Shown: in pieces, positions 2,592 through 12,429 of the stretch
Position numbering within the stretch: the stretch's first letter is position 1
How the letters are laid out: each line of letters starts with the position of its first letter
Assembly (NCBI GenBank): GCA_021771675.1
Contig: JAETOP010000104.1
Coordinates: forward strand, 1 to 13,236
Length of the DNA stretch: 13,236 nucleotides
Direction: 5' to 3'
Origin: Oscillospiraceae bacterium
GTDB lineage: Bacteria > Bacillota_A > Clostridia > Oscillospirales > Oscillospiraceae
Program-made: the position numbers and the translations under genes
The notes under the pieces: generated by a model
What the model was told of the DNA's origin: nothing
The model's database searches: none
Seen by the model: only the letters and a program-made list of their open reading frames with translations

Positions 2592-2606
2592 ATTGTTAAG
2601 CTAATG

Positions 2607-2638
2607 TTGACCGAATGTAGACTTTTCTCTGATAGCAT
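2607..2638 (+). promoter_or_regulatory. Putative response-regulator box and inducible promoter, module 1 regulator operon
   Basis: TTGAC (2607-2611), six bases, then TAGAC (2618-2622) form a direct repeat with 11-bp period, the geometry of OmpR-family operators such as the SpaR box. The same element occurs at 5197-5212 before the transporter ATPase, with a 16-base identical core (2613-2628 equals 5203-5218). TAGCAT (2633-2638) is a -10-like hexamer ten bases after the box; the other copy also has a -10-like hexamer at ten bases. An alternative -35/-10 reading is TTGACC with TGATAG at 2630. Binding by the neighbouring regulator (2682-3356) is inferred. Confidence 0.6.
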
Positions 2639-2681
2639 AGACGGGACAACCCATGAGACACACAACGGAGAGGAACATAAA

Positions 2682-3356
2682 ATGACACCTAAACTTTTGT
2701 TGGTTGATGATGAAGCTGCTATCAACAACCTTATCAAGCTGCATTTCCAGACCGAGGGCTATCTTGTCTATACTGCGTCCGACGCGGAGGAAGCCTCTCA
2801 AATGCTGTCCCATGCGCCTGACCTGATCCTACTGGACATCAATATGCCGGATATGGACGGGCTGGAATTTTGCAAGAAGGTACGCAATCACATTGACTGT
2901 CCCATTATCTTCCTGACCTCCCGCATCACGGAGCAGGACAAAATCATCGGCTTGCGGGCCGGTGGGGACGATTACATCACAAAGCCGTTCAGCCTGGACG
3001 AATTGACGGCCCGCGTGGAAGCCCATCTTCGGCGGGAGAACCGCGCACGGCATGGCGGCAATACGAGGATGTTTGGCGATTTGTTCATTGACTATGTGGG
3101 GCGCTGCGTGTACTGCAACGAGCAGGTCATCCCATTCTCGAAAAAGGAATTTGATATCATCGAATTTCTTTCGCTCAACGCCGGACAGGTTTTTGACCGG
3201 GAACGGATTTATGAGAGGCTTTGGGGCTATGACGCCGAGGGGAGCAGCGACATCCTGAAAGAACATATCCGCAGGATACGCACGAAGCTGGCAAAGGCAA
3301 CCAGCAAAAATTATATTGAAACGGTTTGGGGGTGCGGATATAAATGGGTAAGCTGA
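2682..3356 (+). CDS. OmpR-family DNA-binding response regulator (module 1)
   Basis: The 224-residue protein has a receiver domain at 1-115 and a winged-helix DNA-binding domain at about 125-224. The phosphorylation site is Asp52 (LILLDINMPDMDG), with acidic Asp9/Asp10, Thr79 and Lys101 (YITKPFS) completing the active site. The effector domain ends in the usual wing motif (YIETVWGCGYKW). Start ATG 2682 is chosen because GGAGAGG lies at 2667-2673 and the receiver fold begins here; the frame is open further upstream to 2568, but that stretch contains the promoter and operator. The gene overlaps the kinase start by 13 bases. It should be phosphorylated by that kinase and activate both its own operon and the transporter genes through the shared boxes. 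It resembles NisR/SpaR/VanR-type regulators; the exact subgroup is not settled. Confidence 0.92.
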   Translation: MTPKLLLVDDEAAINNLIKLHFQTEGYLVYTASDAEEASQMLSHAPDLILLDINMPDMDGLEFCKKVRNHIDCPIIFLTSRITEQDKIIGLRAGGDDYITKPFSLDELTARVEAHLRRENRARHGGNTRMFGDLFIDYVGRCVYCNEQVIPFSKKEFDIIEFLSLNAGQVFDRERIYERLWGYDAEGSSDILKEHIRRIRTKLAKATSKNYIETVWGCGYKWVS

Positions 3357-4546
3357 AAAATCTCTCCATCAAAAAAGCATTCTGCCTGATTGTTATCGTG
3401 ACCGCCATCGTCGTAATTCTTTTGTCCACTGCTTCGGTACGAATTTGCTCTAATATACGCGACCAAATCCTGCTTCCCCACGCCTATGTTTTTCAGCCGT
3501 CTATTGTCCAGCCGGAGGGAAACGGCAAATTCACCTTGGAAGCCAGCGGCGGCCCGGCAAACGGCGAGGCATCTGAGTTTACGGATCAAGAAGTGATCCT
3601 ATTTAAGACCGCTCAAACGCTGATGGTTCTCCTGCCCGTCCTTTTTTCTTTCGCGGGCATCGCCTGTGCCAGCTCTGTGTTCTATCGGATCAAGCTGAAG
3701 GAGCCGCTGGACGCGCTCAAACAGGGCATCGTCCACATTGCGGACAACGATTTATCCTTTCCCATCAGCTATCAGAAGCAGGATGAATTGGGCCAGCTCT
3801 GCGGTGCGTTTGAAACAATGCGGCGGGAGCTGCTGGATAATAACCGGCGGATGTGGGCCTTGGTGGAGGAACGGAAGAAGATCAACGCCAGCATTTCCCA
3901 CGACCTGCGGACACCCATCACCGTGATAAAAGGGTACAGCGAATATCTGGACAGAAACATCGGCAAAGATGTACTGACCGAGGACGGAACGCGGGAGATT
4001 GCCGGATATATCCATGAAGCGGCCAGCCGGTTAGAGGATTACGCCAACTCCGTCCACGAGGTACAAGCCCTGGAGGATATGAGCCTGGACTATAAGGAAA
4101 TATCGCTGACCGAGTTGATGAAAGAAATGCAGACCCAGCTTTCCGTTCAATCCGAACAGCACCAAACAAAAATCAACATCTCCGGGCAGTTGCCGGAGCA
4201 GACAGTTTCCCTCGCGCCCGCCGCTGTGTTTCGTATCGTGGAAAACATCGTTTCCAACGCCCTGCGGTACTGCAAATCTAAAGTTGACGTTGATTTCTCT
4301 TACTCGCAGCCCTTTCTTACCATCACGGTAACGGATGATGGGAAAGGCTTCACGGCGCAAGACCGGGCCGAGGCGGTCAATTACTTCTACAAGGGGAAGA
4401 AAGAAAAGGAGCATTTTGGCATCGGCCTAACGATTTGCAAGATTTTAGCAGAGAAGCATGGCGGTGAGATTTTTCTTGACAATGCGCCGGGCGGCGGAGC
4501 GAGGGCGATGGTAAAGTTGAAAGCGGAAAGGAAGCCTGAAAAATGA
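3344..4546 (+). CDS. Sensor histidine kinase (module 1)
   Basis: A 400-residue membrane kinase pairing with the preceding regulator. Membrane helices lie at about 11-33 and 92-115, enclosing a sensor region of some 60 residues outside the cell. A HAMP-like segment (about 115-170) leads to the H-box SISHDLRTPIT with phospho-accepting His186. The ATP-binding domain has the N-box (Asn305 in NIVSNALRYC), the D/G1 box DDGKGF (331-336) and the G2 box FGIGLTIC (358-365), so the enzyme looks intact. ATG 3344 overlaps the regulator stop by 13 bases, with GGGGGTG about nine bases upstream, implying coupled translation. The signal is unknown; context with an ABC exporter suggests an antimicrobial peptide or cell-envelope stress. 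The stop overlaps the next start (ATGA). Confidence 0.92.
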   Translation: MGKLKNLSIKKAFCLIVIVTAIVVILLSTASVRICSNIRDQILLPHAYVFQPSIVQPEGNGKFTLEASGGPANGEASEFTDQEVILFKTAQTLMVLLPVLFSFAGIACASSVFYRIKLKEPLDALKQGIVHIADNDLSFPISYQKQDELGQLCGAFETMRRELLDNNRRMWALVEERKKINASISHDLRTPITVIKGYSEYLDRNIGKDVLTEDGTREIAGYIHEAASRLEDYANSVHEVQALEDMSLDYKEISLTELMKEMQTQLSVQSEQHQTKINISGQLPEQTVSLAPAAVFRIVENIVSNALRYCKSKVDVDFSYSQPFLTITVTDDGKGFTAQDRAEAVNYFYKGKKEKEHFGIGLTICKILAEKHGGEIFLDNAPGGGARAMVKLKAERKPEK

Positions 4547-5181
4547 ATAAGACAATTGCAAGTACGGGAGCTTGGATTGCAACCATTTCGGTGGTTTTGT
4601 TTGCTGCCTGTATGCTGCTCTCCTTTAACTTTGGAAGCTACTTTGTATGTATGTTTTTGCCCATTGGATATATCATGATGTCCGCCGGTTTTTGCAATGA
4701 AAGTGATGAAAAGCATAGGGTGGCTGCCTATGTTGGATTGGTGTTTGCTGCGGTCTATGCTGTTTTGATATTTCTTGTTTATTTCGCACAGACAACCTCA
4801 GTACGGCTGGATTCCTTTGACGAACAGGCGATGGGGATACTGGATTATTCAAAAGGGGGATTGTTTTTTAATTATGATTTACTTGGATATGGGATGATGG
4901 CCCTTTCAACATTTTTCATTGGACTTACAATAACCGGCAGAACCAAAGCGGATAAGTGGTTAAAGTACCTGATGATTATTCATGGAATATTCTTTTTGAG
5001 CTGTTTTATTATGCCAATGACAGGGGTATTTGGCTCGATGTCAAATGGCGAAACGAGGATAGGCGGAGTCGTTGCACTTGAGTTTTGGTGTGCATATTTT
5101 ACTCCAATCGGTATTCTGTCGCTGATACATTTCAAAAGAGGCGGTATAAATTCTGATCTGCCGGATAGAAAAAACCAATAA
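4543..5181 (+). CDS. Six-helix integral membrane protein of unknown function
   Basis: A 212-residue hydrophobic protein that I do not recognise. Predicted helices lie at about 7-27, 32-50, 59-82, 110-131, 139-161 and 173-195, with a short acidic loop at 87-103 and a charged tail. It overlaps the kinase stop codon by four bases (ATGA) and has AAGGAAG at 4528-4534, so it is translated with the regulator and kinase, ahead of the transporter promoter. This position suggests a part in sensing or immunity, such as a kinase accessory protein, but that is inference. The gene is visibly AT-richer than its neighbours and uses AT-ending codons, so it may have a different origin from the rest of the module. 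Confidence 0.8.
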   Translation: MNKTIASTGAWIATISVVLFAACMLLSFNFGSYFVCMFLPIGYIMMSAGFCNESDEKHRVAAYVGLVFAAVYAVLIFLVYFAQTTSVRLDSFDEQAMGILDYSKGGLFFNYDLLGYGMMALSTFFIGLTITGRTKADKWLKYLMIIHGIFFLSCFIMPMTGVFGSMSNGETRIGGVVALEFWCAYFTPIGILSLIHFKRGGINSDLPDRKNQ

Positions 5182-5196
5182 AGAAAACTCTCCATT

Positions 5197-5228
5197 GTGA
5201 CGGAATGTAGACTTTTCTTGATTAAACT
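5197..5228 (+). promoter_or_regulatory. Putative response-regulator box and promoter of the module 1 transporter operon
   Basis: GTGAC (5197-5201), six bases, then TAGAC (5208-5212) match the box before the regulator gene; bases 5203-5218 are identical to 2613-2628. A -10-like TAAACT (5223-5228) follows ten bases after the box, as in the first copy. Transcription would begin near 5235. There is no good -35, as expected for a promoter that needs the activator. AAACTCTCC flanks the box on both sides (5185-5193 and 5224-5232). Confidence 0.62.
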
Positions 5229-5257
5229 CTCCTTATCAACTCGAAAGGAGAGTTTTT
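5224..5257 (+). terminator. Terminator-like hairpin that covers the ATPase ribosome-binding site
   Basis: AAACTCTCCTT (5224-5234) pairs perfectly over 11 bp with AAGGAGAGTTT (5245-5255) around a ten-base loop and runs into TTTTTCTT. It looks like an intrinsic terminator for the regulator/kinase/membrane-protein operon. Its right arm contains AGGAG (5246-5250), the Shine-Dalgarno site of the ATPase gene starting at 5261, so the hairpin would also hide it. Another left-arm copy, AAAACTCTCC (5184-5193), could pair with the same right arm. Confidence 0.7.
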
Positions 5258-5260
5258 CTT

Positions 5261-6142
5261 ATGGAAATAAAAATCCAAGCCCTAAAAAAGAACTACGGGC
5301 AAAAGACAGCATTGGACAATATTACCCTCGCCATTGAAAACGGTATGTTCGGCCTGCTGGGGCGCAACGGCGCGGGGAAAACAACGCTGATGCAGATATT
5401 GTCCACCCTGCGGGAACCAACCTCTGGCACAGTTACATTCAACGAAATCCCGCTGGAAGAAACCCGCAAAATCCGGCCCCTTATTGGCTATTTGCCGCAG
5501 GAATTTTCCTTGTACCCGGATATGTCGGTGTTGGAGATCATGCGCTATCTGGCCGCACTGTCCAATCTTCCGATGGAAGTACAGCGCCAGCGCATCCCCG
5601 ACCTGCTGCAAAGAGTAAATCTGTGGGAGGACAGGGGGAAAAAGGTGCGGAAGCTGTCCGGGGGTATGAAACGGCGGCTGGGTATTGCCCAAGCCCTGCT
5701 CCACGACCCGCAAGTGTTGATTGCCGACGAGCCGACAGTTGGCCTTGACCCACAGGAACGGCTTCGCTTCTATGCCCTGCTGAACGAGTTTTCCAGTAAC
5801 CGTATTGTGATTGTGTCCTCACATATCGTCAGCGATATTGAAACGGTCTGTGAAAAGGTGGCCGTTCTGGATGCCGGGAAGCTGCTGTTTACTGGAACCG
5901 TGGAAGATTTGGCGCAGACGGCGGCGGGAAAGGTCTACGAGCTGACTGTCCCCAAGAGCAGGCAGGCGTCCATCCAAAATCAATATTGCGTCCTGTCCAG
6001 TCAGGGCCATTTGGCGGATGTGAAAATCCGCGTCCTCCATGACAGTGTGCCGACTGTTGGTGATCCTGTGACCTGTGAGGCCACGGTAGAGGACGGCTAC
6101 ATGGAAATGCTGCGTCAGTTGGAGCAGGGGGTGAAAAGATGA
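5261..6142 (+). CDS. ABC transporter ATP-binding protein (module 1)
   Basis: A 293-residue cytoplasmic ATPase that should power the two membrane proteins that follow. Walker A is GRNGAGKTT (34-42, Lys40), the Q-loop is Gln80, the signature LSGGMKRR spans 132-139, Walker B is VLIADEP (152-158, Glu157), and the H-loop is His188. All key residues are present. The C-terminal 80 residues form an extra domain of the kind found in drug/bacteriocin-type ATPases of the ABC-2 group. Start ATG 5261 has AGGAG ten bases upstream, lying inside the hairpin at 5224-5257. The stop overlaps the permease start (ATGATGA region). Family context suggests export of, or immunity to, an antimicrobial peptide or antibiotic; the substrate is not visible. 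Confidence 0.93.
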   Translation: MEIKIQALKKNYGQKTALDNITLAIENGMFGLLGRNGAGKTTLMQILSTLREPTSGTVTFNEIPLEETRKIRPLIGYLPQEFSLYPDMSVLEIMRYLAALSNLPMEVQRQRIPDLLQRVNLWEDRGKKVRKLSGGMKRRLGIAQALLHDPQVLIADEPTVGLDPQERLRFYALLNEFSSNRIVIVSSHIVSDIETVCEKVAVLDAGKLLFTGTVEDLAQTAAGKVYELTVPKSRQASIQNQYCVLSSQGHLADVKIRVLHDSVPTVGDPVTCEATVEDGYMEMLRQLEQGVKR

Positions 6143-7713
6143 TGCGCCTGTTTGGAATGGAGTGCAAAAAGATTGCCAAAAGCATTTTGTATTGGGTGCT
6201 TGTCCTGGCGCTGCTGGCCGTCAGCCTTTATCAGTACGACCCTTCTGTGGAAAGTGAACTTCGGCGCACCAACGACCCCGCTTCGGTGTTCTATACCGCA
6301 GCCGACGGCAACTACGCAGAGGAACGCAATACCGTCCCCGATGCAGCGATGGAACACGCCATGATGATCGGGGCCACAAAACTCCTGATGTATAATTACC
6401 GCGATAACTGCTATCAGTATTACCCCTTTGGCTATGTCAAGGAGAAAACTATGTCCGCCAAGGAGCAGGCTGTAATCCTCCAATACCTGATGGAGCTGAC
6501 CGGGCTTAGCGAACAGGAGTTGGCCGGAACAAAAGACGGAGCGGGAGATACCAATATCGGTGATGTTCCCATCTCCGGCGGCGGCGCTTTTGTCCTGGAA
6601 CCGGGCAAGGGAAGTACAAACGAGAACGGGCAGTTTGTCGCAGAGCCAGACGACTGGCAGTATGTTCCCAATGGTGAAACTGCTTCGGAACAATCGGAAA
6701 ATACGAATGGAAATATAGGCGATATTCCGATTTCCGGCGATGGCGCGTTCATTTTGGAACCGGGCAAAGGAAACACAAACGAAAACGGACAGTTTGTAAT
6801 AAGGCCGGATGAATGGCAATACGTTCCCAGCGATGGCACATCTTCCGAAACGCCGTCGCAGTCAAGCGGCAGCTTTGAAATACAAGTGTCGTTTGAACGC
6901 TTCAAAGAGATCATGGAGGAAGTCAATCGGATGATTGGGCGCAACTCCTATTTTAGCTGGACAATGCTGAAACTGTACTATTTCGGGAACGACATGGAGG
7001 AATCTCCCATCACCGAGCGGCAGCACCGGGAGTTCTACGAGGGCGACCGAGTAACCGGCGCTTTTGCCCGGTACTACTGCGACAGCATTTCCATCAGCGC
7101 GCTGTTCCTCCCGGTCTTTGTAATTGTTGACCTGATGCTGCGGGATAAACGCCGCAAAATGCAGGGCTTGACTTACCCAAGAACGATTTCCAGCGCAAAG
7201 CTGATCTGCACCCGTTACGCCGCCGCAGTCTGTATGACTATGCTTCCCATCCTCATTCTGCCAGTCAAATCCCTGGTTGTGCTGATGCGGTACTGCGGCA
7301 GCATTGGCGTTCAAGCGGACGCGCTGGCTTTTGTCAAGTACACCCTTGCGTGGATTTTACCCACTGTTTTGCTGATTATGGCAATCGGCCTGGTGGTGAC
7401 GGCGCTGCTGGAAAACTACACAGCAATCCTGCTGGCCGGTCTGATCTGGCTGGTTGGTAAGCCCACCATTGATAAGCTGGAAGGCGGGAATTATGGTCTG
7501 TTCGACCTTATCATCCGGCACAATACCCTGAAAGGCTATGGGCGGATGATGGAGAATATTCAAATGCTGGCACTAAACAGGATCACTATTTCCGTCATTG
7601 CCCTGGCGCTTGTGGGGTTGGCTGTCCTTGTGTATCACAAAAAGCGGAAAGGAGGGCTGACCTTTGGACGCCAAAAATCTGCTCACCATCACAAATTCAA
7701 ACTTACGGCTTAA
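6139..7713 (+). CDS. Large ABC-2-like permease with repeat-containing extracellular domain
   Basis: A 524-residue membrane subunit of the module 1 transporter. Helix 1 is at about 14-31, followed by some 285 residues predicted outside the cell, then helices at about 314-333, 358-384, 402-424, 426-441 and 473-498, and a basic tail (KKRKGG). The segment DLMLRDKRRKMQGLTYPRTI after the second helix is typical of ABC-2 permeases. The external domain holds a diverged tandem repeat at 139-244 and a helical part after it. Permeases of bacteriocin-immunity LanFEG systems are about half this length, so the external domain is an addition. ATG 6139 overlaps the ATPase stop; ATG 6142 is equally possible. 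AGGGGGTG lies about six bases upstream. The 3' end overlaps the next gene by 50 bases. A true permease is well supported; the role of the external domain is unknown. Confidence 0.85.
   Translation: MMRLFGMECKKIAKSILYWVLVLALLAVSLYQYDPSVESELRRTNDPASVFYTAADGNYAEERNTVPDAAMEHAMMIGATKLLMYNYRDNCYQYYPFGYVKEKTMSAKEQAVILQYLMELTGLSEQELAGTKDGAGDTNIGDVPISGGGAFVLEPGKGSTNENGQFVAEPDDWQYVPNGETASEQSENTNGNIGDIPISGDGAFILEPGKGNTNENGQFVIRPDEWQYVPSDGTSSETPSQSSGSFEIQVSFERFKEIMEEVNRMIGRNSYFSWTMLKLYYFGNDMEESPITERQHREFYEGDRVTGAFARYYCDSISISALFLPVFVIVDLMLRDKRRKMQGLTYPRTISSAKLICTRYAAAVCMTMLPILILPVKSLVVLMRYCGSIGVQADALAFVKYTLAWILPTVLLIMAIGLVVTALLENYTAILLAGLIWLVGKPTIDKLEGGNYGLFDLIIRHNTLKGYGRMMENIQMLALNRITISVIALALVGLAVLVYHKKRKGGLTFGRQKSAHHHKFKLTA
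6553..6828 (+). repeat. Diverged 53-residue tandem repeat within the permease external domain
   Basis: Codons 139-177 and 192-230 encode two copies at an offset of 159 bases (6553-6669 and 6712-6828). They begin NIGDxPISG, pass through EPGKGxTNENGQFV and end WQYVP; 32 of 39 residues are identical. Of these 32, 15 are encoded by different synonymous codons, so the duplication is old and the protein sequence has been kept. Each copy is followed by a Ser/Glu/Thr-rich linker. Confidence 0.9.
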
Positions 7714-8308
7714 CATGAAACAGACCCTTTTCCCGGCAATTCTGCTCTTGTTCGTGATCCCGCTGATCTACGGAACATCTAACCTCGACAGTGTGAAGTC
7801 TGCGGATTGCCTGGAACGGATGGTGGCGCTGATCGGCCTGCCCATATTCGTGCCGTTGCTAAAGCCGGAGCAGAACGGCGGTATGGACGCGATTATCACA
7901 ATGCGGCCCTTTCCATATCGGATGATTGTTGCGTTGCGGGTTGTGCTTTCCCTGATCTGCACCGTTGCGCTAATTCTCGTTTTCGAGGGATATATGAGTA
8001 TCGGCAGATGTTCATTCCCAGCTTACGCTTATGCGCTCCGAACACTGGCAGTAACTATGACGCTCGGCTTTGTCGGACTTCTGGCAAGCGCCATATCAAG
8101 AAATACGATAGTTGGTTTTTTGGTATCGTTCTGTTGGTATTGTGTCCTGCAAGTAGAGAACATTGGAGCGATCTTCAAATCCGTTTCAAACGGCATCAAC
8201 GTTTATCAAGTCCTGCTGTTGCTGGGAAGCGGTGCGGCAATCATCTTCTTTAGCGGACTTCCCTTTGAAGAAAAAATACAATCAATACGCAAACGGTTCT
8301 GCTCATAA
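7664..8308 (+). CDS. Second ABC transporter membrane subunit (module 1)
   Basis: A 214-residue protein with about six predicted helices (19-36, 50-66, 86-108, 124-146, 148-163 and 179-198), the size and layout of a single ABC-2 permease subunit. It would pair with the preceding permease in the membrane. The start is taken as TTG 7664, because AAAGGAGG lies nine bases upstream; the in-frame ATG at 7715, two bases after the permease stop, has no ribosome-binding site. The TTG start makes a 50-base overlap with the permease gene in another frame, so expression is probably coupled. It is the last gene of module 1, and the operon ends in the hairpin at 8343-8386. I do not recognise a named family. 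Confidence 0.82.
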   Translation: MDAKNLLTITNSNLRLNMKQTLFPAILLLFVIPLIYGTSNLDSVKSADCLERMVALIGLPIFVPLLKPEQNGGMDAIITMRPFPYRMIVALRVVLSLICTVALILVFEGYMSIGRCSFPAYAYALRTLAVTMTLGFVGLLASAISRNTIVGFLVSFCWYCVLQVENIGAIFKSVSNGINVYQVLLLLGSGAAIIFFSGLPFEEKIQSIRKRFCS

Positions 8309-8342
8309 TCAGACTCCGGTCAAATAAGGCTTTTTCCATTGA

Positions 8343-8400: not shown

Positions 8401-9498
8401 TTATAACCAGATTGTAAAACGCATTCCGGCTGGGAATTTCATGGGGACAAACGAGTATGAAATATCCATGGAGGTCAGAAGTGTGTCCACGATATAAAGG
8501 CCCAGGCCATTGCCGCCGCTCTCACTACTGCGGGAGAAGTCAGGCCGGTAAAACGGCTCAAATAGGCGGCGAATCTCGTTGTCAGGGATAGGGGTACACT
8601 CGTTTTCAACAACAAGACTGCGCCCATCTATATACACGGAAACGGATTTCCCGGTTTCGGTGTAGGCCACAGCATTGGCAAGAATATTGGACACTACTTT
8701 ACTGAATGGGCCAACGGGTAATAAGGCCGGAAACTTCTCTGGCAAGTCAAGAGAGAAAGAAATTTTATGTGCCGCCGCAATCATCTGATACGGTTCGCAC
8801 AGCTCCGCCAGTAAGTCAGAAATATCAACCGGCCTTGGCTGCTCCATGATCGTACTTAATTTGGAGGTTTCCAGAATTTCATGTATCATCCCGGCAAGCT
8901 GCTCGACCATTTCCTTGCACTCCGGCAGATAAGTGGCATGATCCTGATACTTCCCAACGCCTAGGATCATGTTTTCCAGAGTAGCGTTCAGCGCAGTCAC
9001 AGGAGTTTTCAGCTCATGGGATGCCGCCCGCAGGAAGTCCACTTTGGCCCTCTCCATATCGCGCACAGTATTTTTCTCCTGCTCCAGATGCCTGATGGTG
9101 GATAACAGATTAGAGTACAGGTCATTGACATTTTGGGCCAATGTTCCGATTTCGTCCCTGGAGCAGACAGAACAGCTTGCCCCTTGGTCTAATTCCATCA
9201 TTCGCTCCGTAGATGCTGAAATTCTCTTGATTGGGTCGGCAATCACCTTGGAAAACAAGAGAGAGCAAACAACAGAAATGAGCAAAGAACAGCCTAAAGA
9301 GATCGGCAATGCTTTCGTTACCGCCTCGGTCACGAATTTTACCTGATTGATACTAACGACTATATCATCCTGGGTACTCAATGAAAGTTGCATCCGGGGT
9401 GCAAGAAGATAGATTAGCCCATGTGACACCGCAACAATAAAAAGCATGATGCCCAGGGTGTAAAGAAAGAATTTAGGGAACAATTTTAATCGTTTCAT
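8401..9498 (-). CDS. VanS-like sensor histidine kinase (module 2)
   Basis: A 365-residue membrane kinase. Two helices (about 11-33 and 64-85) enclose a short external loop of some 30 residues, followed by a HAMP-like region, a coiled segment and the H-box AASHELKTPVTAL with His161. The N-box is SNILANAVAYT (Asn271/Asn275) and the G2 box is GGNGLGLYIV (328-337). The usual G1 box DxGxG is replaced by VENECTPIPDNE (297-308), a shape also seen in VanSB-type kinases but here without the glycine. The stretch from the H-box onward resembles VanSB of Tn1549-like vanB elements, although no van resistance genes are present. ATG 9498 overlaps the regulator stop (ATGA), with GAGGTG six bases upstream. 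The signal is unknown; the short loop suggests sensing at or in the membrane, or through the transporter. Confidence 0.9.
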   Translation of the reverse strand: MKRLKLFPKFFLYTLGIMLFIVAVSHGLIYLLAPRMQLSLSTQDDIVVSINQVKFVTEAVTKALPISLGCSLLISVVCSLLFSKVIADPIKRISASTERMMELDQGASCSVCSRDEIGTLAQNVNDLYSNLLSTIRHLEQEKNTVRDMERAKVDFLRAASHELKTPVTALNATLENMILGVGKYQDHATYLPECKEMVEQLAGMIHEILETSKLSTIMEQPRPVDISDLLAELCEPYQMIAAAHKISFSLDLPEKFPALLPVGPFSKVVSNILANAVAYTETGKSVSVYIDGRSLVVENECTPIPDNEIRRLFEPFYRPDFSRSSESGGNGLGLYIVDTLLTSMDISYSFVPMKFPAGMRFTIWL

Positions 9499-10160
9499 GC
9501 CTGCACCTCATACTTATAGCCAATCCCCTTGACCGTCACGATGCAGTCAAGCCCCAGCTTTTTTCGCAGGTTTTTAATGTAAGTGTCAACAGTTCGGTCA
9601 ATGATTGGACAGTCAGCGCCCCATAGTTCATCCAAAATCTGCGAACGGGTCAGTACCAGACCCTTATGCTCCATCAGCAGGCGGAGCAGGTCGATTTCCT
9701 TGGGCATGATGTCAATTTTCCCATTGGTGCCGCTGGCGGTATAGCCGGAAAAGTCAACTTCAACATCCCCAAAATACACTTTTTGCAATGGAGCAGTCCG
9801 CCCGCTCCGACGCAGGAGTGCGGTGATCCGTTTCCCCAGCAGCACCATCGAAAAAGGCTTTGTCATGTAATCATCCGCCTGTTCGTCAAAGCTCATGACC
9901 TGAGTGTACTCGTCCCCGATTGCCGTGAGCATCAGGACAGGCGTTGTGCTTACTTGACGTATCTCATGCAGCACCGATAGTCCACTGACGCAAGGGAGCA
10001 TAATATCCAGCACCACAAGATCAACACGTTTTTCCTTGAAAAACTGCAAGGCTTTCTCACCGTCATAAGCCGGAATAACGGTATGGCCCGCAGGCTTGAG
10101 ATACTCGCAAATTGCCTCATTGGTTTTGAGATCGTCCTCAACGATCAATAATGTGGCCAT
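9495..10160 (-). CDS. OmpR-family (VanR-like) response regulator (module 2)
   Basis: A 221-residue regulator. The receiver domain (1-115) has Asp9/Asp10, the phosphorylation site Asp52 (VVLDIMLPCVSG), Thr79 and Lys101 (YMTKPFS). The winged-helix domain (about 125-221) ends in VTVKGIGYKYEV. Start ATG 10160 is chosen because AGGAGG (complement of 10168-10173) lies seven bases upstream and the receiver fold starts directly; the frame is open 12 codons further upstream, but that would begin at or before the predicted transcription start region. It shares an ATGA overlap with the kinase gene. It should bind the TTTCA-type 11-bp repeats between itself and the divergent transporter operon and activate both. 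Overall resemblance is to VanR regulators; vancomycin sensing is not implied. Confidence 0.92.
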   Translation of the reverse strand: MATLLIVEDDLKTNEAICEYLKPAGHTVIPAYDGEKALQFFKEKRVDLVVLDIMLPCVSGLSVLHEIRQVSTTPVLMLTAIGDEYTQVMSFDEQADDYMTKPFSMVLLGKRITALLRRSGRTAPLQKVYFGDVEVDFSGYTASGTNGKIDIMPKEIDLLRLLMEHKGLVLTRSQILDELWGADCPIIDRTVDTYIKNLRKKLGLDCIVTVKGIGYKYEVQA

Positions 10161-10181
10161 GGTGACACCTCCTTTTCGGAT

Positions 10182-10214
10182 AGTGTACCACCGCAATGTG
10201 AAATGGGTATGAAA
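10182..10214 (-). promoter_or_regulatory. Operator and promoter of the module 2 regulator/kinase operon
   Basis: Read on the minus strand, TTTCA (10214-10210), six bases and TTTCA (10203-10199) form a direct repeat of 11-bp period. Eleven bases later comes the -10-like TACACT (10187-10182). The divergent transporter promoter has the same arrangement and nearly the same sequence, so autoregulation by the regulator encoded at 9495-10160 is likely. Confidence 0.65.
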
Positions 10215-10285
10215 TCAAAGTGTTATTTTTGAAAATTTCCCATTTCATCTGTGTTCCACACCAGTTTCATACCCATTCCACATTG
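10194..10285. repeat. 21-bp inverted repeat joining the two divergent promoters
   Basis: Bases 10194-10214 are the reverse complement of 10265-10285 at 20 of 21 positions (shared core TTTCATACCCATT). The arms are 50 bp apart. Similarity continues outward through CATTGxGGTG to the -10 region on both sides, so each divergent gene has its own copy of one promoter-operator unit in its own direction. Confidence 0.88.
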
Positions 10286-10297
10286 GGGTGCTATTCT
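10243..10297 (+). promoter_or_regulatory. Four-pentamer operator array and promoter of the module 2 transporter operon
   Basis: TTTCA 10243, TTCCA 10254, TTTCA 10265 and TTCCA 10276 lie exactly 11 bp apart, all on the same strand, enough for two regulator dimers in tandem on one helix face. Eleven bases after the last comes TATTCT (10292-10297), a -10-like hexamer. No -35 is seen; the last repeats occupy its place, as in PhoB-type activation. Transcription would start near 10304, leaving a leader of about 40 bases. Confidence 0.7.
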
Positions 10298-10343
10298 ACG
10301 GGTGCGTTCGGAAGAACAGTACAACAATATGGAGGTATCAACC

Positions 10344-11780
10344 ATGAGCATTTTCAAGAGGGCGTTTTTATACGTCACGCGAAAACGGGGAAAAACTATT
10401 CTCCTGTTCGCTATCCTGCTGATTATGGCAACCTTTGTCCTGACGGGCCTCTCCATCTGGAAAGCATCGGAGGCCGCGCAGCTTGACCTGCGGCAGAGTT
10501 TGGGCGGCAAATTTGACGTTTTTGTGGATTGGAGCAACAGCCCCTATGTAGTGAAAAAAACCGTCAAAGATGAAGTAGACGAGGAAACCGGCAAGACATC
10601 AAGCAGCTTTCTCATGTATTCCACCGTACAATTTACCCCGGAAAACATTGCGGCAATCAAAGGTGTTTCCGGCGTAAAGTATTGCAGCGCAAGGCAGGAC
10701 AATCTTTTGCCGTTCGATGGGCTTTCCTTGTTTCCCGGAACGATCTCAACTGACGCAAAATATCAGGGATATACAAAGGCGCTGGGCGTCTGCAACACGG
10801 AAGATGATGAACTTTTCACCACCGGCACACTGACGCTGGCAGAGGGGCGGCATATCTCCGCCGACGATACCCAGGTGGCGATCATCAGCCAGGATTTGGC
10901 GGAGCGGAATGAGCTGAAGATTGGGGACTATCTCACCGCCCACAGTTACAGCGTGGAAGATCAGAGCTTTACCGGGCAAGAAATCAAGGTGCAGATCATC
11001 GGACTGTTTACCCCGAACGTGGTGGAGCAGTTTGGGGAAACCGTCACCACCTACGACAAAATCCAGAACCGTGTATTTGTGGATTTACAGTCCTCAAAAG
11101 AATTGGACGGCGGAGAAATCAACTACGGCTTTTCCGCACTCCACGTTACCATGGACGACCCGCAGGACATGGCGCGGGTGGTGGCCGAAGTCAAGGCCCT
11201 GCCGGGTATCGACTGGAACGCCTTTACCGTGGAGGTGGACAATGAAACCTACGAAAACGCCGCCGCTCCGCTGGCTACGCTGAATGAATTGGTCGTGACC
11301 CTGCTGGTGGTGATTATCGTTGTCAGCGCCATTATTCTGGCCCTGATCCTGACCCTCTGGACAAAGACCCGTATTCACGAAATCGGCGTGTTCCTGTCCG
11401 TGGGTATCAGGAAATCGGCTATTATCGGGCAGTATTTGATTGAGGTGCTACTGATTGCCGTCCTCGCCTTTGGCCTGTCCTACTTCACCAGCAACACCGT
11501 AGCGGGGCAGATCGGCAACCACCTGTTGGAGCAAAGTATGCAGACCGAGCCGGAGGACGATAACGATGTTGTAGCTGCCGCCGCTGCGGTTGATGTGGGC
11601 GCGGACACTCTTATTCAAAAACCCCTGCCTACGGAGAATGGCATCCAAGTGTCCGTTGGGCTGGACAATCTGGCCCAACTCTATCTGATTGGCCTTGCCA
11701 TTATCATTGTGGCCGTCAGCGCATCGTCCATTACGGTTATGCGGCTGAAACCCCGCGAAATCTTGTCGAAAATGAGCTAA
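10344..11780 (+). CDS. MacB/FtsX-type ABC transporter permease (module 2)
   Basis: A 478-residue permease with the four-helix MacB plan: helix 1 at about 18-38, an external domain of some 275 residues, and helices at about 316-339, 361-382 and 445-466. The FtsX-family cytoplasmic motif after helix 2 is clear (KTRIHEIGVFLSVGIRKSAI, 341-360). An unusual acidic and Ala-rich stretch (TEPEDDNDVVAAAAA, 401-415) enlarges the external loop between helices 3 and 4. Start ATG 10344 has GGAGG eight bases upstream; the frame is open further upstream to 10251 but that lies in the operator array. Such permeases use force on extracytoplasmic partners or export peptides and antibiotics, often under VanRS/BceRS-like control. 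The ATPase follows after 13 bases. Substrate unknown. Confidence 0.92.
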   Translation: MSIFKRAFLYVTRKRGKTILLFAILLIMATFVLTGLSIWKASEAAQLDLRQSLGGKFDVFVDWSNSPYVVKKTVKDEVDEETGKTSSSFLMYSTVQFTPENIAAIKGVSGVKYCSARQDNLLPFDGLSLFPGTISTDAKYQGYTKALGVCNTEDDELFTTGTLTLAEGRHISADDTQVAIISQDLAERNELKIGDYLTAHSYSVEDQSFTGQEIKVQIIGLFTPNVVEQFGETVTTYDKIQNRVFVDLQSSKELDGGEINYGFSALHVTMDDPQDMARVVAEVKALPGIDWNAFTVEVDNETYENAAAPLATLNELVVTLLVVIIVVSAIILALILTLWTKTRIHEIGVFLSVGIRKSAIIGQYLIEVLLIAVLAFGLSYFTSNTVAGQIGNHLLEQSMQTEPEDDNDVVAAAAAVDVGADTLIQKPLPTENGIQVSVGLDNLAQLYLIGLAIIIVAVSASSITVMRLKPREILSKMS

Positions 11781-11793
11781 AGGAGGGACAATC

Positions 11794-12429
11794 ATGCCTA
11801 CACTGGAATTAAAAAATGTTTCTTACGCCTACGAAAAGGGCAAGGCAGTTTTGCAGAATGTCAGCACAGAACTGGAAACCGGGAAAATGTACGCCATCCT
11901 CGGCCCGTCCGGGTCGGGCAAGACCACGCTGCTGTCCCTCCTGGGCGGGCTGGATGTGTCAACACAGGGTAGCGTCCTGTTTGACGGCGAGGACATTACG
12001 ACAAAGGGCCTGGAACACCACCGCAGGAACCATATTTCGCTGATCTTCCAGAGCTACAACCTGATCGACTATATGACGCCCGTAGAAAATGTGCGGCTTA
12101 CCGCCAAGCTGGACGCCGCCCCCATCCTGGAACGGCTGGGGCTGGAGCAGGACGAGATTACCCGGAACGTACTGAAACTGTCCGGCGGACAGCAGCAGCG
12201 GGTGGCGATTGCGCGGGCGCTGGCCTCCGATGCCCCGGTCATTCTGGCGGACGAGCCGACCGGGAACCTGGACGCCGACACCGCCGAGGAAATCACCGCT
12301 ATTTTGAAAGAGAGCGCCCATGCGTTCGGGAAGTGCGTGGTGGTCGTGACACACTCTGGCGAGGTTGCAAAGCAAGCAGATGTGGTACTGGAAATCAAAC
12401 GGGGGCATTTGAAAGAGAGGGAAATGTGA
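11794..12429 (+). CDS. MacB/LolD-type ABC transporter ATP-binding protein (module 2)
   Basis: A 211-residue ATPase of the MacB/LolD/FtsE kind, partner of the preceding permease. Walker A is GPSGSGKTT (37-45, Lys43), the Q-loop is Gln86 (SLIFQSYNL), the signature [15 protein letters not shown] starts at 129, Walker B is [12 protein letters not shown] (149-160, Glu154), and the H-loop is His187 (VTHSGE). The helical subdomain before the signature is slightly short compared with typical members. Start ATG 11794 has AGGAGG seven bases upstream. The stop overlaps the lipoprotein start by one base (TGATG). Confidence 0.94.

Follow-up and report, generated by a model that had tools for sequence, protein, structure and literature searches.

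A kinase-to-ATPase hairpin as a likely insulator of an ABC transporter operon in an Oscillospiraceae bacterium

In the insertion sequences IS10 and IS50, the start of the transposase gene is hidden in read-through RNA and accessible in RNA that the element initiates itself. The locus described here would resemble them in its protection against read-through, and differs in that they are transposons without two-component control. In phage T4 the long early RNA of gene e, as of soc, 49 and I-TevI, folds over the ribosome site; the 5' strand of this structure is encoded by the DNA in which the late promoters sit, and late RNA lacks that strand and is translated (PMC3014915, in the text available). 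The likeness to gene e would be that RNA started upstream hides the ribosome site and a local start drops the 5' strand. T4 differs in its phage genes and phage late promoters, whereas the present hairpin would answer to a putative two-component activator, lies in a bacterial, possibly mobile operon and is followed by a T-tract. For IS10, the available part of PMC8450116 discusses antisense RNA and Hfq. Among operons in which sensor genes precede ABC transporter genes, psdRSAB of L. paracasei (a Bce-like RSAB system) was found by RT-PCR to be co-transcribed across sensor and transporter despite a Bce-like promoter before psdAB (PMC10858260), and a terminator with supposed read-through was predicted for yfiK-yfiL of B. 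subtilis (PMC4672918). Both psdRSAB and yfiJK-yfiLMN (lnrJK-lnrLMN) share with our locus the gene order and an inner promoter or predicted terminator; they differ in that the available text of these reports describes no hairpin with a -10 element in one arm and a ribosome site in the other. The titles and abstract openings of the literature searched, a set outside which most subscription journals lie, mention no such hairpin at a sensor-transporter junction. Gene e of T4 already shows this logic, and employing it where a kinase gene meets transporter genes looks like a novel variation.

The window, that is, the whole 13,236-nucleotide stretch analysed (contig JAETOP010000104.1), contains an operon of two-component and ABC transporter genes (Table 1). 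The best NCBIfam model for its regulator is PhoB, at a score below the cut-off of that model. In relatives with upstream sequence the ATPase gene comes directly after the kinase gene (the kinase stop lies 60 nt before the ATPase ATG in L001, L002, L003 and L010) and no gene for a 212-residue membrane protein is found there, which makes it an additional gene of the window. The operon is flanked by a gene for a CHAP-domain protein (355-2529) and by another kinase/regulator pair that is accompanied by permease and ATPase genes (8401-12429); judged by ORF starts, the neighbours in L008 are similar. The flanking genes and the like neighbours in L008 suggest that the operon is cargo of a mobile element. 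In the plasmid and phage collections (6 and 5 records, respectively) the region 2600-8320 was matched weakly and never in full.

Table 1. Genes and predicted regulatory features of the operon, with the basis of each assignment
Feature	Position	Strand	Basis
Predicted promoter of response-regulator gene, TTGAC-N6-TAGAC-N10-TAGCAT, no hairpin	2607..2638	+	Pattern match
OmpR/PhoB-type response regulator	2682..3356	+	Response_reg, Trans_reg_C
Sensor histidine kinase	3344..4546	+	Family match
Extra gene, probable membrane protein of 212 aa, in kinase-hairpin gap	4543..5181	+	No Pfam/NCBIfam family
Second left-arm copy, probably kinase 3'-end relic, unconserved	5185..5193	+	Relatives, L010 match
Direct repeat (11 bp) GTGAC-N6-TAGAC, predicted box of the response regulator	5197..5212	+	Like box before regulator gene
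Predicted -10 TAAACT, overlaps left arm	5223..5228	+	Fixed 10-nt box spacing in family A; TACACT in family B
Hairpin, 11-bp stem (5224-5234 with 5245-5255), 10-nt loop	5224..5255	+	Fold, stem census, kept in relatives
Predicted local start of transcription at A, 7 nt past the -10	5235..5235	+	Inference from geometry; A in 21/21 rows
Ribosome-binding site AGGAG, right arm	5246..5250	+	Sequence, pairing probability
T-rich tract TTTTTCTT, stem end up to ATG, terminator-like	5253..5260	+	Terminator score +3.3
ABC transporter ATPase	5261..6142	+	ABC_tran
Probable permease 1	6139..7713	+	Position, hydrophobic stretches; no Pfam or NCBIfam hit
Probable permease 2, start uncertain	7664..8308	+	Position, hydrophobic stretches; no Pfam or NCBIfam hit

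It is likely, in our judgement, that the hairpin before the ATPase gene insulates the ABC transporter from the two-component gene pair that controls it. The phosphorylated response regulator would bind the direct repeat and recruit RNA polymerase, which would use TAAACT as its -10 element and start at about A5235. Because the resulting local RNA would lack the left arm, its AGGAG would be free and the transporter would be translated. Read-through RNA from the regulator and kinase genes would carry both arms, and the stem would fold; part of this RNA may terminate at the T-tract, and the rest would have its ribosome site locked. With read-through RNA terminated or locked in this way, production of the transporter would depend chiefly on firing of its own promoter, despite upstream transcription in the same direction. 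If this is true, 32 bases would unite a promoter element, a terminator and a translation lock, and a compact operon, possibly mobile cargo, would keep its transporter silent behind transcribed sensor genes. The signature (a regulator box and, 10 nt further on, a -10 element in one stem arm whose partner arm bears the ribosome site) could then serve to find regulated transporters in unstudied gut bacteria, and the arrangement would be a natural design for low-leak expression.

The stem pairs AAACTCTCCTT with AAGGAGAGTTT without a mismatch, and 10 nt separate the end of GGAG from the ATPase ATG. A T-run (5253-5257) is followed by C and then TT, this T5-C-T2 series following the stem before the ATG; a U-tract thus adjoins the stem as in an intrinsic terminator, with a C interrupting it, and the stem covers the ribosome site as in a read-through/local-start switch of the T4 gene e type. 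The RNA fold of 5170-5290 has an energy of -27.8 kcal/mol (z = -3.69), and none of 200 shuffles was as low. Of the 130 gene starts in the window and L001-L011 that have a ribosome-site motif (L004, too near its contig end, being uncounted), nine show a perfect 11-bp stem over the ribosome site, all nine at the kinase-to-ATPase hairpin junction; the next-longest such stem has 6 bp. Sequence, fold and census together confirm the first-pass annotation, which had described a perfect 11-bp stem running into a T-run with AGGAG in its right arm. A simple promoter/terminator scan of the window listed neither the hairpin nor the local promoter, because it limited loops to at most 8 nt and required a -35 hexamer; its totals were near chance (14 promoters vs 11.0; 16 terminators vs 15.8).

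The evidence for a local start comes from the geometry of the promoter region. Its two direct repeats have a period of 11 bp, the period that the available text of PMC3978041 gives for PhoB sites, and an OmpR/PhoB-family regulator is encoded nearby. TAAACT begins exactly 10 nt after this box. The comparable box before the response-regulator gene has the same 10-nt gap; there, box, N10 and TANNNT are exact in six of nine loci, differ at one position in a seventh, and are absent in L006/L007. In 983,094 letters searched on both strands, [TG]TGAC-N6-TAGAC-N10-TANNNT had 27 matches (counting loci present in duplicate), all before regulator or ABC ATPase genes. Promoters of the regulator genes lack CTCTCC after the -10, which indicates that the promoter alone does not need the arm, and as box, spacing and TANNNT recur there without a hairpin, the hexamer in the left arm is a likely -10. 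From this we infer transcription starting about 7 nt after TAAACT at A5235, the first base past the left arm, and a promoter placed in the 5' strand of the stem fits such a start geometrically. The equivalent base is A in all 21 rows of the two families, A and B, described below. Family B has the box TTGAG-N6-TTGAG, again 10 nt, and then TACACT, so that TA[AC]ACT is kept at a fixed 10-nt distance across both families; no conserved hexamer was seen upstream of it in either. As there is no good -35 hexamer, use of the promoter would depend on the putative activator. Since a box followed by TAGCAT at identical spacing also precedes the regulator gene, the sensor pair is probably autoregulated. 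A local start near 5235, just after the left arm, had been proposed at the outset, and the box-10 nt-TAAACT geometry shared with the regulator promoter speaks for it by comparison.

Folding was compared between a modelled read-through RNA, beginning as much as 150 nt ahead of the -10, and a local RNA beginning at the predicted start (23 loci given, 22 rows; in L056, which was left out, the downstream frame does not pass the length filter). In the 21 rows of families A and B the unpaired probability of the ribosome site in the read-through RNA is 0.00 for 19, the others being L058 (0.12) and L073 (0.24), and in the local RNA it is 0.41-0.83. These modelled values favour the original suggestion that the ribosome site is hidden in read-through RNA and freer in local RNA. 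A terminator score, calculated for ten loci, was positive in nine, with a modest +3.3 in the window and -2.1 in L074; L017 scored +20. Given these folding and terminator scores, the read-through RNA would plausibly carry a translation lock as well as a weak terminator, and the local RNA neither.

A protein search for relatives gave 13 loci (L001-L013), in nine of which (L001-L008 and L010; L006 and L007 are alike at the hairpin region) GTGAC-N6-TAGAC, TAAACT and both arms are unchanged. The layout is absent in L009, whose match begins at residue 28 with the start unaligned, and in L011-L013 (28-37% identity). An 86-nt query matched five of 397 genomes; L057 and L059, which matched at the ribosome-site end only, were dropped. 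The DNA and pattern searches supplied one further family A copy (L056/L068, a single place). In a DNA search eight of nine genomes matched, and Blautia schinkii had an additional locus (L055), which precedes another ATPase gene. The pattern ACTCTCCTTATN{2,32}AAGGAGNGTNTTT had 12 matches in 11 of 397 genomes and none in the reversed control; two belong to family A (L060, the place of L010 in the commensal Blautia schinkii DSM 10518, and L068) and ten to family B, with near-identical matches in L062, L065, L066 and L070 and again in L063 and L064. An open ATPase frame follows all but L068, and a kinase stop lies 25-32 nt before all but L071. In L071, the place of L055 in Blautia schinkii, the kinase end is 544 nt upstream of the hairpin, and no reading frame of more than 81 codons was found between them (930-1500). 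The hairpin pattern had no match in 400 genomes of the family of G001.

By its sequences family B is a second, distinct sensor-transporter family with the same layout. Its stem, ACACTCTCC/GGAGAGTGT, has one pair altered from A-U to C-G on both sides; two added members, L073 and L074, have one stem mismatch or wobble. In an alignment of 16 stem sequences 98.3% of the cells pair, against at most 71.0% when the alignment is slid. One pair is changed on both sides in seven of the 16 rows, probably through one change that separates families A and B, and eight of the 11 pairs never vary. Conservation of the stem is thereby upheld, at the level of sequence comparison, in close relatives and in a second family with a compensatory pair. 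In all 16 rows the right arm contains the ribosome site, and T at 5255-5257 is invariant.

These alignments bear on two rival explanations. In the first, which narrows the insulator model, read-through RNA would be silenced purely by sequestration of its ribosome site and would hardly terminate. The folding probabilities, the stem census and the gene e precedent agree with this; the invariant T residues and the position of the co-varying pair outside the AGGAG core fit a terminator stem as well, and we regard this narrower form as somewhat unlikely. A plain intrinsic terminator after the kinase genes, with overlap of the ribosome site as mere economy of space and an unimportant translation block, seems to us improbable. 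The T-tract directly after the stem and the mostly positive scores agree with it, as do the more distant relative L017, in which TATACT stands in one arm (the left) of a stronger terminator and the ribosome site comes further downstream, and the terminator predicted in the sensor/transporter gap of yfiK-yfiL (available text of PMC4672918). However, the ribosome site lies within the right arm throughout the 16 rows and is almost fully closed by folding in most, and the window's own score is near zero, with a C breaking the tract.

Upstream of the box, the window has a 9-nt copy of the left arm. Positions 5177-5200 agree with the 3' end of the kinase gene of L010 at 22 of 24 positions and with those of L001, L002, L003, L006 and L008 at 17-20 of 24 (in L005 the best match, 15, lies elsewhere than the kinase 3' end), and 5185-5193 is therefore best read as a remnant of a kinase tail. 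The copy is not kept in relatives. We rejected it as a part of the device, as it is unconserved and resembles the tail of a kinase gene. The first-pass annotation had proposed a compact insulator for transporter control, strengthened by this extra copy: the copy is present and comparison bears out the core of the proposal, but the strengthening role falls away. The extra membrane-protein gene adjoins the relic.

The same relic contains the 5' partner of two alternative pairings, I1 and I2, which were considered as an attenuator and rejected, this partner being unconserved. They speak for a reading in which transcription starts upstream of the stem and the hairpin, present in every transcript, acts as a leader under conditional control, be it a riboswitch, a thermosensor or an antitermination switch. 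Rfam gave four matches on the window up to E 5, none at the gathering score, which is still compatible with a novel family. Against such a leader stand the position of that partner in an unconserved relic and the retention of TA[AC]ACT at its fixed distance, no upstream hexamer of like conservation having been seen, and we think it very unlikely.

The loop ranges from 10 nt in the window to 45 nt in L006 with the arms fixed, and the longer loops of L005, L006, L008 and L068 hold hairpins of their own, all of which fits a folded RNA and not a protein operator. A DNA operator for a dimeric protein, suggested by the perfect dyad beside a promoter, is hardly credible given this widely varying arm spacing with inserted hairpins and an arm that the ribosome site explains. 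The loop insertions are inverted repeats; the hairpin grows at its tip and the stem is kept.

Closure of the ribosome site alone is not special, since among 52 loci fetched by ATPase similarity ten of the 50 with a motif have a closed site (at most 0.05) in the long RNA, and only some of these ten have the hairpin-promoter layout. In L072 (L055), L074, L076 and L088 closure is combined with a TA-type hexamer near the pairing stretch, with local values of 0.41-0.75; L073 combines them weakly in this control (0.35 to 0.61). Three sets of distant ATPase relatives were fetched without regard to hairpins, and most of these loci lack the arrangement. Among L014-L036 (23 loci, 37-45% identity) no comparable layout was seen except a looser one in L017; L022 has an upstream kinase and a closed ribosome site, with no -10-like hexamer there. 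The 18 loci L072-L089 comprise the place of L055 fetched again (L072), L073 and L074 with the layout, L076 and L088 with looser forms, and 13 in which no layout was seen, among them L075 and L077, where the ribosome site pairs 60-76 nt upstream. None was seen among 11 relatives of L017 (L090-L100); L097 has an ordinary terminator after the kinase. At 17 kinase-to-ATPase junctions, a set biased by the many loci fetched with the hairpin pattern, 14 have a perfect stem of at least 9 bp, the exceptions being L073, L074 and L078.

In L088 (minus strand) the kinase stop lies 64 nt before the start, and TATGAT runs into a left arm over the ribosome site. In L076, near a contig end, TATAAT forms part of the left arm of a hairpin of -25.5 kcal/mol. 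L017 (41% identity, minus strand) has GTAGAT repeated at 11 bp and, at a distance of 10 nt, TATACT within the left arm of its strong terminator between kinase and transporter; its separate ribosome site is not clearly freer in the local RNA (0.84 to 0.23, or 0.05 to 0.19 with another motif and RNA length). We advance tentatively, as possible rather than probable, that promoter-in-arm insulators recur in sensor-to-transporter operons of gut Firmicutes, the stem of families A and B acting as -10, terminator arm and lid of the ribosome site, with L017, L076 and L088 as looser versions that may have arisen independently. L088 speaks for the insulator model, and the ten closed sites in 50 speak against it.

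Viral contigs had no relative of the ATPase and no match to the box; they had ten matches to the hairpin pattern, five with an ORF start close behind. In one of these contigs (L038, minus strand, near 8015-8060) the arms CTCTCCTTAT/AAAGGAGAG precede an ORF, with TATAAT in the loop, and this hairpin is a possible phage counterpart.
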